From the NCBI RefSeq assembly GCF_000950575.1, contig NZ_CP011005.1, positions 2,666,001 to 2,730,000 of the forward strand: a stretch of 64,000 nt of DNA, written 5' to 3'. The notes below the pieces were generated by a model. It saw only the letters and a program-made list of their open reading frames with translations. It made no database searches and had not been told where the DNA came from. Position numbers and translations under genes: made by a program. Source of the DNA: Psychromicrobium lacuslunae (GTDB taxonomy: Bacteria > Actinomycetota > Actinomycetes > Actinomycetales > Micrococcaceae). Below are positions 10,928 to 46,491 of this stretch, one piece after another (position 1 is the stretch's first letter; each line of letters opens with the position of its first letter).

Positions 10928-11542
10928 ATGGTCAGTCGCAGTGCCCGCATGGTGCGCGCCTGGATTGCTGCCGCTTTTGCCACCATGATTGCAGCCGCAT
11001 CGCATACTTTGGGTGGCGGCTCAATACCTCATCCGCTGATTCTGGGGTTTTCGCTGGCAATCTCGGGGCTTGTCTGCCTCGCGCTAGCTGGCAAAATCCT
11101 CTCTTTACCCCGGCTTTCCCTCGGAGTGTTGTTCAGTCAGGCTGTTTTTCACACCCTCTTCAGCATTACTCCGACGATGAGCAGTAGCGGAACCATCCCC
11201 GGATCACATCATGGCGCCATGCAGCAGATACCTATGCCCACCGGGACGGCAGAGATGGGGATGGACCACACCTCGCTACCGATGCTCGGTGCGCACCTGA
11301 TCGCAGCGATCGCCACCATCGCCCTGCTGCGACGCGGCGAAGTCGCCGCCATCGCACTGTGGCGGGCGATCAGCATCGAACTACGCGACTTCTTCAGCCT
11401 GCGAGTAGTACACAGTCCCGCAGCGCCGGAAACCATCAGCGCCGTAGTCACTTGCCATTTCCGCGTCCTCACCGACTTGGGCGCCCCGCAGCTCACCATG
11501 CGGCACCGTGGCCCGCCGGAGTTCCCCGCTCCCACCCACTAA
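10928..11542 (+). CDS. four-TM membrane protein with His/Met-rich loop, first gene of copper operon
   Basis: This 204-residue predicted membrane protein has helices at about 9-25, 36-56, 62-80 and 119-136. The loop between helices 3 and 4 (residues 81-118) is rich in His and Met (H94, H95, M98, M103, M110, M112, H114). It is paralogous to the protein at 44245-44862: both share an HTxxGG motif after a helix-1 histidine (H26/H27), a SQxxxH motif in helix 3 (H75/H76) and an AH at the start of helix 4 (H123/H129). It precedes CopC, PCuAC and Dyp genes. A role in copper handling is inferred from context and metal-ligand residues. I know no family name for it. Confidence 0.8.
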   Translation: MVSRSARMVRAWIAAAFATMIAAASHTLGGGSIPHPLILGFSLAISGLVCLALAGKILSLPRLSLGVLFSQAVFHTLFSITPTMSSSGTIPGSHHGAMQQIPMPTGTAEMGMDHTSLPMLGAHLIAAIATIALLRRGEVAAIALWRAISIELRDFFSLRVVHSPAAPETISAVVTCHFRVLTDLGAPQLTMRHRGPPEFPAPTH

Positions 11543-11583
11543 TCACCCGGCTCGCAGGACGAGCCTCAACCGGGGAAATAATC

Positions 11584-12192
11584 ATGCCTTCAACCCTTTT
11601 CAGGGGTTGGTGGAAGATCTTTGCTGCCCTCATCGCGGCGGTCTTTGTGTTGCTGTCCGGCGCCTCCAGCGCTTCGGCACACGATCAGCTCATTTCCACC
11701 ACCCCGGCAAATAACTCACAACTCAGCACCGCTCCGGCCAAGATCACCTTGACCTTCAGCGCCAAGCTTCTCGACCTCGGTAACGAGGTAGTGATTGCTG
11801 ACGCCAGAGGCACCAACTGGTCGGCCGGAAAATCCACTCTCGCCGGTGACACTATGACTCAAGCCGTCAAAACAGCCCTGCCAAAGGGGCAGTACGAAGC
11901 CCGTTGGCGAGTGGTTTCCAGCGATGGACACCCGATCAGCGGCAGCTTTCGCTTCGCAGTCGGCGAAGCGGTGAGCGAGGGCTCTCTGCTGCCAGCGGTA
12001 ACCCAGAGCGCGGAGCCGGTGGAGACCCCATCAGCGACCTCGGTCGCAGTGCCCGCAGCGGAGGATACCCAGAACAATGCCTCCTGGCTGAACCAGCCCT
12101 GGCTGCTCTGGGCAGGCATCGGTGCCGCCGTAGGCGTGCTCGGCTACCTGATCTATATAGCCGTGGGCAATGCCCGAAAAGACACTAACTAA
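11584..12192 (+). CDS. copC: CopC-domain copper-binding protein, membrane-anchored
   Basis: This is an extracytoplasmic copper-binding protein of 202 residues. A signal peptide (residues 1-32, ending SASA) leaves His33 as the mature N-terminus, the usual first Cu(II) ligand of CopC. The second ligand motif SSDGHPISGSF gives D114 and H116. A linker and a single C-terminal helix (about 175-197) anchor the domain outside the membrane. The CopD permease portion found in YcnJ/CopCD fusions is absent. The start at the ATG at 11584 has GGGGAAA upstream; a longer frame beginning inside the previous gene is out of context. It lies 41 bp after the His/Met-loop protein gene and 28 bp before the PCuAC gene. 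Confidence 0.92.
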   Translation: MPSTLFRGWWKIFAALIAAVFVLLSGASSASAHDQLISTTPANNSQLSTAPAKITLTFSAKLLDLGNEVVIADARGTNWSAGKSTLAGDTMTQAVKTALPKGQYEARWRVVSSDGHPISGSFRFAVGEAVSEGSLLPAVTQSAEPVETPSATSVAVPAAEDTQNNASWLNQPWLLWAGIGAAVGVLGYLIYIAVGNARKDTN

Positions 12193-12220: not shown

Positions 12221-12754
12221 ATGAAGAAGATTTTTAGTCTGACCGCAGCTTCACTCGGCATCGCCGCCCTCGCCCTGACCGGTTGCTCCGGCACCGCAGC
12301 TTCGAGCAGCTCGAATGCTGGCAGTCCCAGTAGCAGCGCAAGCCAGCTGGCCGAGACACCAAGCAGTGGCCTGAGCATTGTGGATGCCTGGGTTAAGTCC
12401 AATGGCACCAAGATGACCGGGGCCTTCGGAATCCTGAAGAACAATACCGATCAAAACATCGTCGTGATGAAGGCCAGCACCCCGGCGGCGGGCATGGTGG
12501 AGCTACATGAAACCGTGATGGCCGCCGATGGCAGCATGAAAATGCAGCCCAAAAAAGGTGGCTTCGTGATTCCCGCGAAGGGCCAGCTGGAGCTCAAACC
12601 CGGCGGCAACCACATCATGCTGATGGAAGTCGGCAAGGCGATTAACCCGGGCGATGAGCTCAGCTTCGAGTTGAGCCTTGAGGGCGGCAAAACCATGAGT
12701 TTCAAAGCCCCGGCTAAGGCCTTCTCGGGAGCGAACGAAACCTACGCGGGCTAA
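12221..12754 (+). CDS. PCuAC-domain copper chaperone lipoprotein
   Basis: This is a 177-residue lipoprotein (lipobox LTGC, Cys22) with a Ser-rich linker and a PCuAC (DUF461) domain. The copper-site pattern is visible: H96, M106/M108, then H131-x-M133. PCuAC proteins carry Cu(I) outside the cytoplasm and help load oxidases. The Streptomyces homologue ECuC works near Sco and DtpA. The start ATG at 12221 has an AAGGAG site. The stop overlaps the start of the Dyp peroxidase gene (TAATG), so the two are translationally coupled. Confidence 0.93.
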   Translation: MKKIFSLTAASLGIAALALTGCSGTAASSSSNAGSPSSSASQLAETPSSGLSIVDAWVKSNGTKMTGAFGILKNNTDQNIVVMKASTPAAGMVELHETVMAADGSMKMQPKKGGFVIPAKGQLELKPGGNHIMLMEVGKAINPGDELSFELSLEGGKTMSFKAPAKAFSGANETYAG

Positions 12755-13986
12755 TGAGCGAGCGCAAAACACGGCTCCCGCGGCGGCACCTCTTGATCGG
12801 GGGTGCCGCCGCGGGCACCGGCGCGCTCGGCGCCGCATTGATCGGCAACGGACTTGCCAACTCCCCGAATCACCTCGCCTCGGCGCCAGGCACTGCCTCC
12901 GACACAACGTTCAATGGTGATGCCAGGCAGCCTTTCTACGCGAAGCGGCAGTCAGGTATTGAAACCCCGGCGCAGGCACATGCCAGTTTCGTCGCGCTCA
13001 ACTTGAACCCTGGGCTGCGCGCCGACGGGGTACGTCGACTGCTGAAACTCATCAGCGATGACGCGGCAAAACTGAGTCAAGGTACAGCTGCGCTTGCTGA
13101 TATGGAAGCCGAACTCGCGGAAAAACCGGCAAATCTGACCATCACATTCGGCTTTGGTCCTGGATTTTTCCAGGCCATCGGCAAGCCCGTGCCGGCTTCG
13201 GCGCAGCCGCTGCCAGCCTTCAACATCGATCGGCTGCGTGCCGAGTACAGCGGCGGCGACTTGCTTTTGCAGCTGTGCTGCGATGATCCCATCACGCTGG
13301 CTCACGCTCAGCGGATGCTGCTCAAAGACGCCAGATCCTTCAGCACGGTGCGCTGGGCACAGAGTGGCTTCCGGCGCGCGGTTGGCACCGAAGCTGCGGG
13401 GACGACGATGCGGAATCTCTTTGGTCAGCTCGACGGCACCGGGAATTCCCCGTCCGGCAGCGCAGAGCGCGAGAGGATCATCTGGGGCGACCAACACACA
13501 GCTGCCTGGCACCCCGATGGCACCTCACTGGTGCTACGTCGAATTTCAATGGATCTGGATAAGTGGGATGAACTGGATCGCGGCGGCCGAGAAGAGTCGG
13601 TAGGGCGAACCCTTGCTACTGGTGCGCCGCTAACCGGCAACCAAGAGTTTGACGAGCCCGACTTCGAAGCGAAGACTTCCCTGGGTTTCCCGGTGATCGC
13701 CGATTTCTCCCATCTACGTAGGTCGCGCCCGGACGATTCGCGGCAGCGGATCTTCCGACGGGCTTATAACTACGAACAATTGGCCACTGGTACCGGCACA
13801 ACGACCTCGGGTCTGCTTTTCGCCAGTTATCAGGCTAGTGTCGCAGAGCAGTTCACTCCGATTCAGAAACGTTTGGACGAACTGGATCTACTCAATCAAT
13901 GGACCACCCCAATTGGTTCAGCAGTGTTTGCTATCCCGCCAGGTTGTGCCGCTGGCGGCTTCATCGGAGATTTTCTGTTTTCCTGA
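12754..13986 (+). CDS. Tat-exported Dyp-type heme peroxidase
   Basis: This is a DyP-type peroxidase of the EfeB/DtpA branch, 410 residues. A twin-arginine type signal (PRRHLLIGG followed by an Ala-rich helix, residues 9-32) predicts export of the folded heme protein. The family GxxDG motif is present as GQLDGTGN (G224, D227, G228). The proximal heme histidine is H320 in the FSHLRRSRP segment. Because it follows CopC and PCuAC genes rather than EfeU/EfeO, a DtpA-like role with extracytoplasmic copper proteins is more likely than iron uptake; that is inference from context. It is the last gene of the operon. Confidence 0.93.
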   Translation: MSERKTRLPRRHLLIGGAAAGTGALGAALIGNGLANSPNHLASAPGTASDTTFNGDARQPFYAKRQSGIETPAQAHASFVALNLNPGLRADGVRRLLKLISDDAAKLSQGTAALADMEAELAEKPANLTITFGFGPGFFQAIGKPVPASAQPLPAFNIDRLRAEYSGGDLLLQLCCDDPITLAHAQRMLLKDARSFSTVRWAQSGFRRAVGTEAAGTTMRNLFGQLDGTGNSPSGSAERERIIWGDQHTAAWHPDGTSLVLRRISMDLDKWDELDRGGREESVGRTLATGAPLTGNQEFDEPDFEAKTSLGFPVIADFSHLRRSRPDDSRQRIFRRAYNYEQLATGTGTTTSGLLFASYQASVAEQFTPIQKRLDELDLLNQWTTPIGSAVFAIPPGCAAGGFIGDFLFS

Positions 13987-44244: not shown

Positions 44245-44862
44245 ATGGCTACAACTGCGCCTTTTCGCCTACTGCGCAGCTCAATCATTGCTGGCTCCTC
44301 GCTCTGCCTGGCCTCGGCGGCGCACACGGCAGCGGGCGGCACCCTACCGGAGCCGCTGATCTTCACCGCTATGATCGCGCTGACCCTACTGGCCAGCACC
44401 CTGGTGTCTCGCTGGAAACTTGGTCCGGTATCGATTCTGGGCATCCTGGCTTTGAGCCAGCTCAGCCTGCATCAGTGCTTCGAATGGTTTGCCTTCAGCC
44501 CAATGACCGGGGCCAGTTCAACGCCACACCAGCACCAGCACGGCTCGGCGCTCGTGGAACTGCCGGCCATGCTGCCAGCCCACTCGGCTCATTCTGCCGA
44601 TTCAGCTGGCTTGGGCATGCTGCTCGCACACGTCATCGCGACGATCATCGTCGGGCTAATGGTAGCCCGCGGCGAGTCAGTGTTATGGGCACTGGGCGAC
44701 TGGCTACGTCCGCTGCTGAGATTGCTTGTGCCAGCAGTCCTGCCGGTACCCAGGCAGCCAGCCGCCGCTTCGGCTCCGACTGAACGCGCCAAACCGCAGC
44801 GTTTCCTGAGGGCGGCCCGCTGGCGCGGCCCACCCTCGACCGGGTTGTCCCTCATCTTCTGA
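44245..44862 (+). CDS. four-TM His-loop membrane protein, paralogue of the 10.9-kb protein
   Basis: This is a 205-residue membrane protein with the same plan and spacing as the protein at 10928-11542. The helix-1 motif is SAAHTAAGG (H27), helix 3 has SQLSLHQ (H76), and helix 4 begins LLAHVIATI (H129). The loop is His-rich (H95, H97, H99, H113, H116) but has fewer Met than its paralogue. The start at the ATG at 44245 follows GGAAGGGG; a GTG at 44221 is too early. It is followed 59 bp later by a YcnI-like gene, again placing the family next to copper proteins. Confidence 0.8.
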   Translation: MATTAPFRLLRSSIIAGSSLCLASAAHTAAGGTLPEPLIFTAMIALTLLASTLVSRWKLGPVSILGILALSQLSLHQCFEWFAFSPMTGASSTPHQHQHGSALVELPAMLPAHSAHSADSAGLGMLLAHVIATIIVGLMVARGESVLWALGDWLRPLLRLLVPAVLPVPRQPAAASAPTERAKPQRFLRAARWRGPPSTGLSLIF

Positions 44863-44921: not shown

Positions 44922-45644
44922 TTGAAAAAGAATTCCTTCGCGCCCAAAAAACTGGTCGCTAAAACCACCCTGATCGCCGTCGGGACCCTGGGGCTGATGG
45001 GCCTAGGCATCTCAGCAGCCGCTGCGCACGTCACGGTGAGCGCCTCCAGCACGGCCGCCAATTCCTACACTCTGCTGACTTTTAGCGTTCCGCACGGCTG
45101 CGACGGCTCAGCAACCACAAAGGTCGCCATCTCACTGCCTGAGGGCATTGACGATGCGACGCCAACCGTCAACCCGAATTGGACCGCCAGCAAGGTCACC
45201 GAGAAACTCGCCCAGCCAAAAACCCTGGAAAATGGCAGCAAGGTCTCCGAACGCACCACCCAAGTGGTTTACACCGCTAAAACACCGCTAGATCCGGAAC
45301 TTCGTGATGCCTTGGTGCTCTCGGTGAAACTACCTGAAAAGGCCGGCAGCCAATTGAATTTCCCGGTACTGCAAAGCTGCGTCAAGGGCCAGACCAACTG
45401 GTCGAATCTGGTTAAACCAGGCCAGGATCACGACGCAGTAGAAGACCCGGCGCCGTTTGTCACGCTAACTGCCGCAGACACTGAGGATCATGCCGCGCAA
45501 CCTAGCGCAGCAGCACAGCCTGCCAATAGCGACAACAACGCTGGCTCGCAGGCCCCCGGCTGGATCGGCCTGGCCGCCGGGCTGTTGGGCCTGCTGATGG
45601 GCGCCTTTGCTCTATTCAGGACGCGCAAGTCGAACACCCAGTAG
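44922..45644 (+). CDS. YcnI-like DUF1775 copper-binding protein
   Basis: This 240-residue exported, membrane-anchored protein begins with a signal peptide cleaved before His36 (AHVTVSAS), the N-terminal ligand typical of DUF1775/YcnI, whose Bacillus member binds Cu(II). The domain includes LTFSVPHGCDGSATTKVAIS and ends in an Ala/Asn linker, one helix (about 212-230) and basic residues. The start is a TTG at 44922 with a poor ribosome site. It likely shares an operon with the His-loop membrane protein. Confidence 0.9.
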   Translation: MKKNSFAPKKLVAKTTLIAVGTLGLMGLGISAAAAHVTVSASSTAANSYTLLTFSVPHGCDGSATTKVAISLPEGIDDATPTVNPNWTASKVTEKLAQPKTLENGSKVSERTTQVVYTAKTPLDPELRDALVLSVKLPEKAGSQLNFPVLQSCVKGQTNWSNLVKPGQDHDAVEDPAPFVTLTAADTEDHAAQPSAAAQPANSDNNAGSQAPGWIGLAAGLLGLLMGAFALFRTRKSNTQ

Positions 45645-45813: not shown

Positions 45814-46491
45814 ATGTCACATTTCACTTCCCCCGTTCCCCGTTTCCTGACCACTCTCGGCACCGTGTTCGTCGCTGCCGTGGTGCTGGCCGCTTGCACC
45901 CCGGCCGGCAATAATCAGCCCAGTGCAAGCCCCAGTGACAGCAGCACCGCTAGCGACAGTCCGAGTTCTCCGTCAACTGCGCCCTCATCGACTCCGAGCG
46001 GCTCCGCAACAGCATCGACCACCGGCAAACCCAGTAACACATCGTCAAATGCCTCACCAGCACTCTGCACCGCCGCCATGTTAAGCGGTTCGATTGCGGA
46101 GGGTGGCGGCGGTGCTGCTGGCAGTGTGTATATGAACCTGGTGGTGAAGAACAAGACCGCTCAGCCCTGCAGCATTAACGGCTACCCCGGTGTGTCCCTG
46201 GTGGGCAAGGGGAACGGAACCCAATTGGGAGCTGCCGCCGATCGAGACCCCAACCAGCCCTCCACCGGCGCTGTTCTACTAGCCGCCGGAGCAAGCGCAG
46301 CCGCTCAGTTGCTGTACACCCGGGCCGAGAACTATGGCGCTAGCTGCACCCTGGTGAAAGCCGATGGCTTCCGGGTCTATCCGCCCAGCGCCACCGACGC
46401 GCTGTACATCCCAAATTCACTGAATCCGATCAACGCCTGTAACGAGAAGTCGGTGGTGCTGCTACACATTGGCGCTTTCCATCAGGCCTAA
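45814..46491 (+). CDS. DUF4232-type lipoprotein
   Basis: This is a 225-residue lipoprotein (lipobox VLAAC, Cys28) with a long Ser/Thr/Pro linker. It has a C-terminal DUF4232-like domain recognised by LCTAAMLSGSIAEGGGGAAG, then PCSINGYPGVSLVG and the terminal cysteine in INACN. Such proteins are common in Streptomyces and Arthrobacter; their role is unknown. Four cysteines probably form two disulfides. It stands alone 169 bp after the YcnI-like gene; that spacer holds only a weak hairpin. Confidence 0.85.
   Translation: MSHFTSPVPRFLTTLGTVFVAAVVLAACTPAGNNQPSASPSDSSTASDSPSSPSTAPSSTPSGSATASTTGKPSNTSSNASPALCTAAMLSGSIAEGGGGAAGSVYMNLVVKNKTAQPCSINGYPGVSLVGKGNGTQLGAAADRDPNQPSTGAVLLAAGASAAAQLLYTRAENYGASCTLVKADGFRVYPPSATDALYIPNSLNPINACNEKSVVLLHIGAFHQA

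Follow-up and report, generated by a model that had tools for sequence, protein, structure and literature searches.

Why two copper operons within one stretch of DNA should each open with a small membrane protein of no assigned function is the question raised by this locus. The window, by which we mean the whole 64,000-nucleotide stretch analysed here out of a host genome of 3.6 Mb, contains both open reading frames at the coordinates and with the lengths (204 and 205 residues) that a preliminary description had given them, and each is followed by the genes that this description had named:

10928..11542, + strand: leader ORF 1, 204 residues, a membrane protein with three conserved histidines and a C-terminal RGPP, 5' of copC
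11584..12192, + strand: CopC (PF04234), first presumed target of leader 1 (Pfam; start codon picked by script)
12221..12754, + strand: PCu(A)C copper chaperone (PF04314; Pfam)
12754..13986, + strand: Dyp-type peroxidase (PF04261/PF20628; Pfam/NCBIfam)
44245..44862, + strand: leader ORF 2, 205 residues, a paralogue of leader 1 with four predicted helices, 5' of ycnI
44922..45644, + strand: YcnI-like protein (PF07987; DUF1775) with a TTG start, presumed target of leader 2 (Pfam)
45814..46491, + strand: DUF4232 lipoprotein (Pfam)

We propose that both proteins are arrest-peptide leaders, each controlling the copper operon directly behind it, in which the nascent chain would sense copper and arrest would be the ON state; we put the probability of this reading at roughly 0.8. 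The two proteins are probably not copper transporters but sensors of copper built into the operons that they precede. In this way an apparent transporter to which no function had been assigned becomes a regulatory device that can be tested.

An undescribed family with three invariant histidines

The two proteins are homologous (BLASTP E 2e-11, 31% over 204 columns) and a genome search with either recovers the other, which bears out their suspected paralogy. The suggestion that they belong to an undescribed family also stands: neither has a meaningful match in Pfam or NCBIfam (NCBIfam yields a single sub-threshold hit, to a type I toxin model with E 0.061), and no model is matched by more than two of 81 family members at E up to 0.01, the best E being 0.0021. 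Searching the PDB by sequence gave no match at E up to 1, and a structure search returned five matches with a best E of 7, none of them a solved structure resembling the four-helix protein. Matches to the family occur in all seven genomes searched in the genus, in 135 of 197 in the taxonomic family and in 201 of 394 in the class, while a phylum-wide draw yields 22 matching genomes out of 296, one of which (G794) lies outside the class. Some genomes of Actinomycetes carry several leader copies with different targets. One of the window proteins (P0002) matches 15 plasmid records, 14 from Arthrobacter, Paenarthrobacter or Pseudarthrobacter and one from Nonomuraea. A mobile or phage origin was considered and rejected; the other window protein (P0001) has no phage match.

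Family counts refer to 162 members, a non-random set composed of the window proteins, the best matches of the genus, family and class genome searches and 20 chosen weaker ones; L015, which has an in-frame stop, and the repeat-place loci L001-L003, L009-L013 and L043-L072 were excluded. The three histidines that align in the two window proteins (H26/H27, H75/H76 and H123/H129) are each invariant in all 162 members, so their presumed conservation persists in a deep alignment, and the Gln of the SQxxxH motif is retained in 161. The invariant columns of a 22-member alignment include the three histidines, GG, P, Q and F as well as R194, G195, P196 and P197 at the C-terminus; with 81 members, eight columns stay invariant, H27, H76, H129, R194, P196 and P197 being six of them, and G195 comes close.

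An AlphaFold2 model of the 44245-44862 protein, computed with 81 sequences, places helices at residues 8-29, 37-54, 61-82 and 121-161 with a mean pLDDT of 80, the loop and the tail being less confident. The four-helix layout ascribed to both proteins is therefore supported for this one, to which the model is confined. If the Arg-bearing N-terminus and the TM2-TM3 loop are cytoplasmic, as a positive-inside reading would have it, the three histidines of the model would lie near the outer face. Together with a Met four residues before the third histidine (157 of 162 members), they reproduce the pattern of three histidines and one methionine of the SLIV_18480-type leader, and copper would be the ligand of such a site.

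A C-terminal RGPP motif

Both window proteins carry near their C-terminus an RGPP motif that the preliminary description had overlooked and that is nearly as conserved as the histidines. It ends seven residues before the C-terminus in the 10928-11542 protein and eight residues before it in the 44245-44862 protein:

11507..11518, + strand: RGPP codons of leader 1 (sequence)
44824..44835, + strand: RGPP codons of leader 2 (sequence)

A tail motif near the C-terminus is found in 159 of the 162 members (RGPP in 155, RAPP in 4), the remaining three being one with RTPP (L185) and two without a tail. Between the motif and the C-terminus lie 2-54 residues (median 6), the rest of the tail being mostly variable, and the distance from the third histidine to the motif is 60-91 residues (median 68) and never below 60 in the 159 members.

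Small secretory or membrane proteins that carry RAPP or RGPP close to their C-terminus have been reported to arrest translation (Fujiwara et al. 2025, PMC12992588). That study shows arrest of seven S. lividans proteins with RAPP/RGPP in vitro, where it depends on the Arg, and arrest also in B. subtilis. It further reports an over-representation of YcnI and PCu(A)C genes downstream of uORFs with these motifs, and most of the uORFs before YcnI have TM segments. A conserved C-terminal RGPP directly 5' of a target gene thus marks a translation-arrest leader, and the window proteins combine the features of such a peptide at the sequence level: a motif close to the C-terminus of a membrane protein that is encoded directly 5' of a same-strand target. 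By analogy we infer that both of them arrest translation. By analogy with CruR, and with the register taken from published work (PMC12992588), a ribosome arrested on leader 1 would have codon 11513-11515 in its P site and codon 11516-11518 in its A site. Both proteins are probably RGPP arrest leaders of one family, equipped with a histidine sensor in the membrane, and the kind itself is already known. Our literature search found no paper devoted to this family of histidine-bundle RGPP leaders. What is new relative to the literature found is that one homologous family extends across these targets, that it has a tail-less class, and that, across the family, an anti-Shine-Dalgarno sequence lies under the expected stall site.

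Copper genes follow the leaders

The first recognised gene on the same strand within 700 bases downstream belongs to a copper-linked class in 154 of the 162 members (YcnI 73, CopC 30, PepSY_TM 18, PCuAC 13, ECF sigma factor 11, Peripla_BP_2-type periplasmic binding protein 6, SCO 3; one or two examples of each type were confirmed in Pfam). The tight link to copper genes that had been suspected is therefore a property of the family, whose members do not lie mainly elsewhere. On the upstream side such a gene is present in three of 132 members and absent in 129. Eight members have no target class downstream: L190 and L191 lack the tail and its RGPP, L145 lies at a contig end, and the other five (L086, L106, L109, L153 and one of the two in L150) are tailed and have sequence on both sides, with no recognised copper gene next.

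Several neighbourhoods merit separate mention. The leader of L106 directly precedes a DsbA-like thioredoxin gene, which is followed by a VKOR-type protein (the latter judged by eye), and that of L109 precedes a DUF5134 protein that is Met-rich in appearance. Four genomes of the host's own genus (loci L004, L005, L006 and L007) have, behind a relative of the 10928-11542 leader, the gene for a periplasmic binding protein in place of copC (PF01497 confirmed in L007), indicating that the leader changed its target within one genus; it is conceivable that an ABC importer for copper or for a copper carrier is encoded there. Streptomyces loci L134 and L147 have two leaders in tandem, the first before ycnI and the second before an ECF sigma factor, an arrangement resembling the closely numbered SLIV_33595/SLIV_33605 of S. 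lividans.

The distal genes of the window operons also have counterparts. The Sco-ECuC-DtpA copper operon described in Streptomyces lividans likewise includes a Dyp peroxidase gene (PMC4736821). The TTG start of the YcnI-like gene is supported by a matching ATG in L014. In 22 of the 36 loci fetched first, YcnI is followed further on by a DUF4232 match, suggesting that the DUF4232 lipoprotein is part of the YcnI unit in these bacteria.

Relatives without a tail

Relatives that lack the tail provide a natural control. Ten such members were found (L190, L191, L273-L278, L281 and L289), eight of them among 20 further places with short or weak matches that were fetched deliberately, so that their number does not reflect the frequency of the class. 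All ten lack a same-strand target gene downstream, and the next gene is convergent in seven. A CopC gene is present on the opposite strand within the fetched stretch of L276 and L277, and an ECF-type gene at the far upstream end of L273 and L275. Every tailed member among the 20 added places has a target, save one at a locus edge (L279); within these places L280 is the same place as L024, and L282 and L283 give an identical tail. In this sample the arrest tail thus accompanies a gene to regulate, and the histidine bundle exists without it. The tail-less proteins retain all three histidines (read by eye), and four tail-less orthologues give dN/dS values of 0.25-0.43 in six pairs; since these values are below 1, the finished protein may have a further role. 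The tail-less class is possibly a stand-alone copper-binding membrane protein.

Family-wide pairing of the expected stall site with the downstream Shine-Dalgarno sequence

How would a stalled ribosome act on the next gene? The RNA of 121-127 members at below 70% identity was analysed, with downstream starts picked by script. The first rule for picking starts (Shine-Dalgarno alone) was wrong for several loci, and the fold z and C-over-G values rest partly on such wrong starts; the duplex test on 125 leaders uses an improved rule, and its peak is at the same position as with the first one. With start sites that are partly wrong, 121 leaders fold better than their dinucleotide shuffles (mean z -1.99; 57% below -1.64), and in many of the 22 best-folding ones the bases just 3' of the two Pro codons pair with the Shine-Dalgarno sequence (SD) of the next gene. 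Counted from the P site, the duplex of a leader with its own SD at P+0..P+20 has, over 125 leaders, a mean energy of -9.81 kcal/mol, compared with -8.12 kcal/mol when the SDs are permuted (z -8.28, reached in 0 of 5000 permutations). The signal drops to z -1.24 at P+12..P+32 and stays between -1.4 and +2.0 further downstream; z values of lesser size, from -2.6 to -3.1, are also obtained when the window begins 30, 20 or 10 bases 5' of the P site. Masking P..P+16 raises the accessibility of the SD by 0.07 on average, compared with at most 0.019 for six other blocks (p 2e-5 versus the next block). At P+3..P+23 the z value depends on the target, being -6.4 for YcnI, -3.3 for PepSY_TM, -2.4 for CopC, -1.5 for PCuAC, -0.5 for ECF and +1.4 for Peripla_BP_2; the leader groups before periplasmic-binding-protein and ECF genes lack an own-SD signal and that of PCuAC is weak. 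Family-wide, 27% of the leaders reach three expected anti-SD pairs.

The pairing can also be followed in the ycnI leaders of Streptomyces, of which 77 at 80 loci were used (L198 ends before its RGPP, and L227 and L258 have no usable start). Their mean duplex energy is -15.2 kcal/mol at P+5..P+25, as against -8.2 to -10.3 kcal/mol in five non-overlapping windows, two of which rest on 20 and 11 leaders only. The permutation z at P+5..P+25 is just -3.2, probably because these SDs are so alike. The paired bases encode part of a recurrent C-terminal PYA or SYA.

The window itself holds one candidate for this type of pairing:

11522..11528, + strand: UUCCCCG, within the expected footprint of the stalled ribosome and complementary to the copC SD, a candidate anti-SD
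11571..11577, + strand: CGGGGAA, the putative copC SD

The match in leader 1 is not specific to the locus, as 31% of the SDs taken from the leaders for comparison pair with it no worse, and CGGGGAA also lies within a local hairpin (11543-11576) that is no better than shuffles (z -0.93). The ycnI leader offers nothing convincing, its pairing being worse than most (0.98). Since both window leaders fold no better than shuffles (z near 0), with 0.31 and 0 predicted anti-SD pairs, respectively, no RNA claim is made for these two. Pairing between the stall site and the SD thus has support across the family but fails to convince for the two leaders of the window.

It is possible, although we think it unlikely, that the arrest leader is coupled to its target through Rho, with the stalled ribosome hiding a C-rich rut site rather than unmasking an SD. 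Indeed, in 115 of 123 leaders the stretch from the uORF stop to the SD has a C-over-G excess above 0.05, and the leader value of 0.152 (n=123) lies above the 0.019 of 42 control gaps, which rest on crude gene calls, and the 0.073 of 22 operon-internal gaps. Moreover, CruR, which precedes the same classes of target gene, is reported to work via Rho (PMC9426467). However, the own-SD pairing depends on position and holds up against permutation, neither of which is expected from Rho, and the pyrimidine-rich anti-SD may itself account for part of the C excess. The window leaders also leave just 41 and 59 nt between stop and start codon. A C-over-G bubble of the Rho type is present but too unspecific to be preferred, and the two Pro codons push up the value that it reaches at the stall site itself.

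A nascent chain that may sense copper

Given an arrest motif, a membrane-embedded histidine site and the family-wide SD pairing, the following sequence of events can be envisaged. A ribosome would synthesise a four-helix membrane protein whose three histidines and methionine lie near the outer face, and some 68 residues after the third histidine it would reach RGPP and stall. The last 30-35 residues of a nascent chain occupy the ribosome tunnel at the stall, so the four helices should already be out and able to bind copper. The stalled ribosome would cover the bases otherwise paired to the SD of the next gene, which could then be translated. Binding of copper would promote folding of the bundle, pull on the chain and release the stall, upon which the RNA would close again and the genes for copper acquisition and delivery would be turned down. 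Release by pulling, arrest as the ON state and window leaders that behave like the rest of the family are steps that we infer.

CopC can also serve copper resistance, and this would suit the opposite sign, in which bound copper would lengthen the stall and thereby induce the genes behind the leader. Such a scheme, to which we give slightly less credit than to coupling through Rho, has been proposed for CutF of Rhodobacter, where copper is described as favouring translation of the next gene by way of a stem-loop that shields its SD (PMC9973294). Against it stand the tasks of YcnI, PCuAC and SCO, namely acquiring copper and assembling oxidases: YcnJ/YcnI are reported to support growth of B. subtilis when copper is scarce (PMC13344008), and Sco, ECuC and DtpA to matter at low copper in S. 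lividans (PMC4736821). For this reason, and by analogy with CruR, we favour the sign in which the stall would signal low copper and release would signal bound copper.

That the leaders report membrane insertion (the status of Sec/YidC) and not copper, as SecM, MifM or ApdA do for their own targets, appears improbable. The same class of arrest motif and a membrane-inserted nascent chain would fit such a role, and RAPP-like peptides have been identified 5' of sec/yidC genes (PMC12992588; PMC7897499), but an insertion sensor needs neither three strictly conserved histidines nor the methionine and a histidine-bearing loop, and the targets here are copper genes, not sec/yidC. Least credible of all is the stand-alone copper permease or ligand relay replacing CopD of the preliminary description, because conserved histidines, copper neighbours and a membrane domain that can have its own job, as the tail-less relatives suggest, are outweighed by a CopD-domain protein encoded elsewhere in the same genome (E 8.9e-25), by the lack of profile similarity to that one CopD domain (hhalign probability 0.15%), by the absence of a CopD (PF05425) match from both window proteins and all 81 members, and by the RGPP 5' of the target, its loss in members without a downstream target and the anti-SD, all of which a CopD substitute leaves unexplained.

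Relation to known leaders

Our best reading is a nascent-chain copper sensor of the CruR/CutF kind, equipped by all appearances with an unrelated, four-helix histidine sensor. The nearest likeness, by description, is SLIV_18480 of S. lividans, one of the seven proteins shown to arrest, for which four TM helices, a predicted copper site of three histidines and one methionine, a C-terminal RAPP/RGPP and a metal-related downstream gene are reported (PMC12992588). Its Cys40/Cys127 pair was not seen, by eye, in 12 Streptomyces ycnI-type members. The main text of that paper mentions neither Shine-Dalgarno sequences nor mRNA or secondary structure nor ribosome binding sites, and we found there no treatment of the YcnI, CopC, PepSY, SCO and ECF leaders as one homologous family and no mention of tail-less members (PMC12992588).

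CruR of Bordetella pertussis is likewise a copper-responsive uORF ending in RAPP, and its homologues share the target classes PepSY_TM, SCO, PCuAC, YcnI and CopC. Unlike the family described here, however, it is reported to sense through a CXXC in a DUF2946 protein instead of a four-TM histidine bundle, and to act by Rho-dependent termination in mostly proteobacterial hosts (PMC9426467). At E 0.01 the 81 members together hit five Pfam families, and DUF2946 is not one of them. CutF of Rhodobacter capsulatus resembles our model as a nascent exported copper sensor with a stem-loop that shields the SD of the next gene, but it has a CxxxC sensor and a proline-rich tail for which the term RAPP is not used in the account cited, showed no strong stalling of its own in the authors' assay and is proposed to act with the opposite sign (PMC9973294). 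In SecM, too, stalling makes the SD of the following gene accessible, although SecM is a secreted protein with a RAGP core that senses protein export (PMC7897499). For ApcA, ApdA and ApdP no SD-sequestering hairpins are reported in the same source (PMC7897499), and an anti-SD under the stall site offers a coupling mechanism for leaders of the RAPP class.

It is tempting, if tentative, to go further and see in the three-histidine bundle a membrane domain that binds copper, has not yet been modelled and can stand alone, as in the tail-less class; in Actinomycetes it would have been made into a general nascent-chain copper sensor that runs a regulon (YcnI, CopC-PCuAC-Dyp, SCO, PepSY_TM, ECF and even an ABC importer) by means of an anti-SD written into the codons under the stalled ribosome. 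For the study of copper control in these bacteria, the analysis supplies a sequence family together with a putative sensor site and a candidate RNA switch.

Departures from the usual leader architecture

At 72 of 80 named Streptomyces loci RGPP or RAPP lies within the last 40 residues of the open frame; among the other eight, L198 is cut short and in seven the frame continues past RGPP. The leader stop has been lost in L200, L204 and L250, where the frame runs through the whole of YcnI with RGPP kept in mid-fusion, as would be expected if few ribosomes pass RGPP. L185 is a similar leader-YcnI fusion, with RTPP in mid-fusion. Finally, the ycnI leader of L279 (genome G106) is split over two overlapping frames, possibly by a frameshift.
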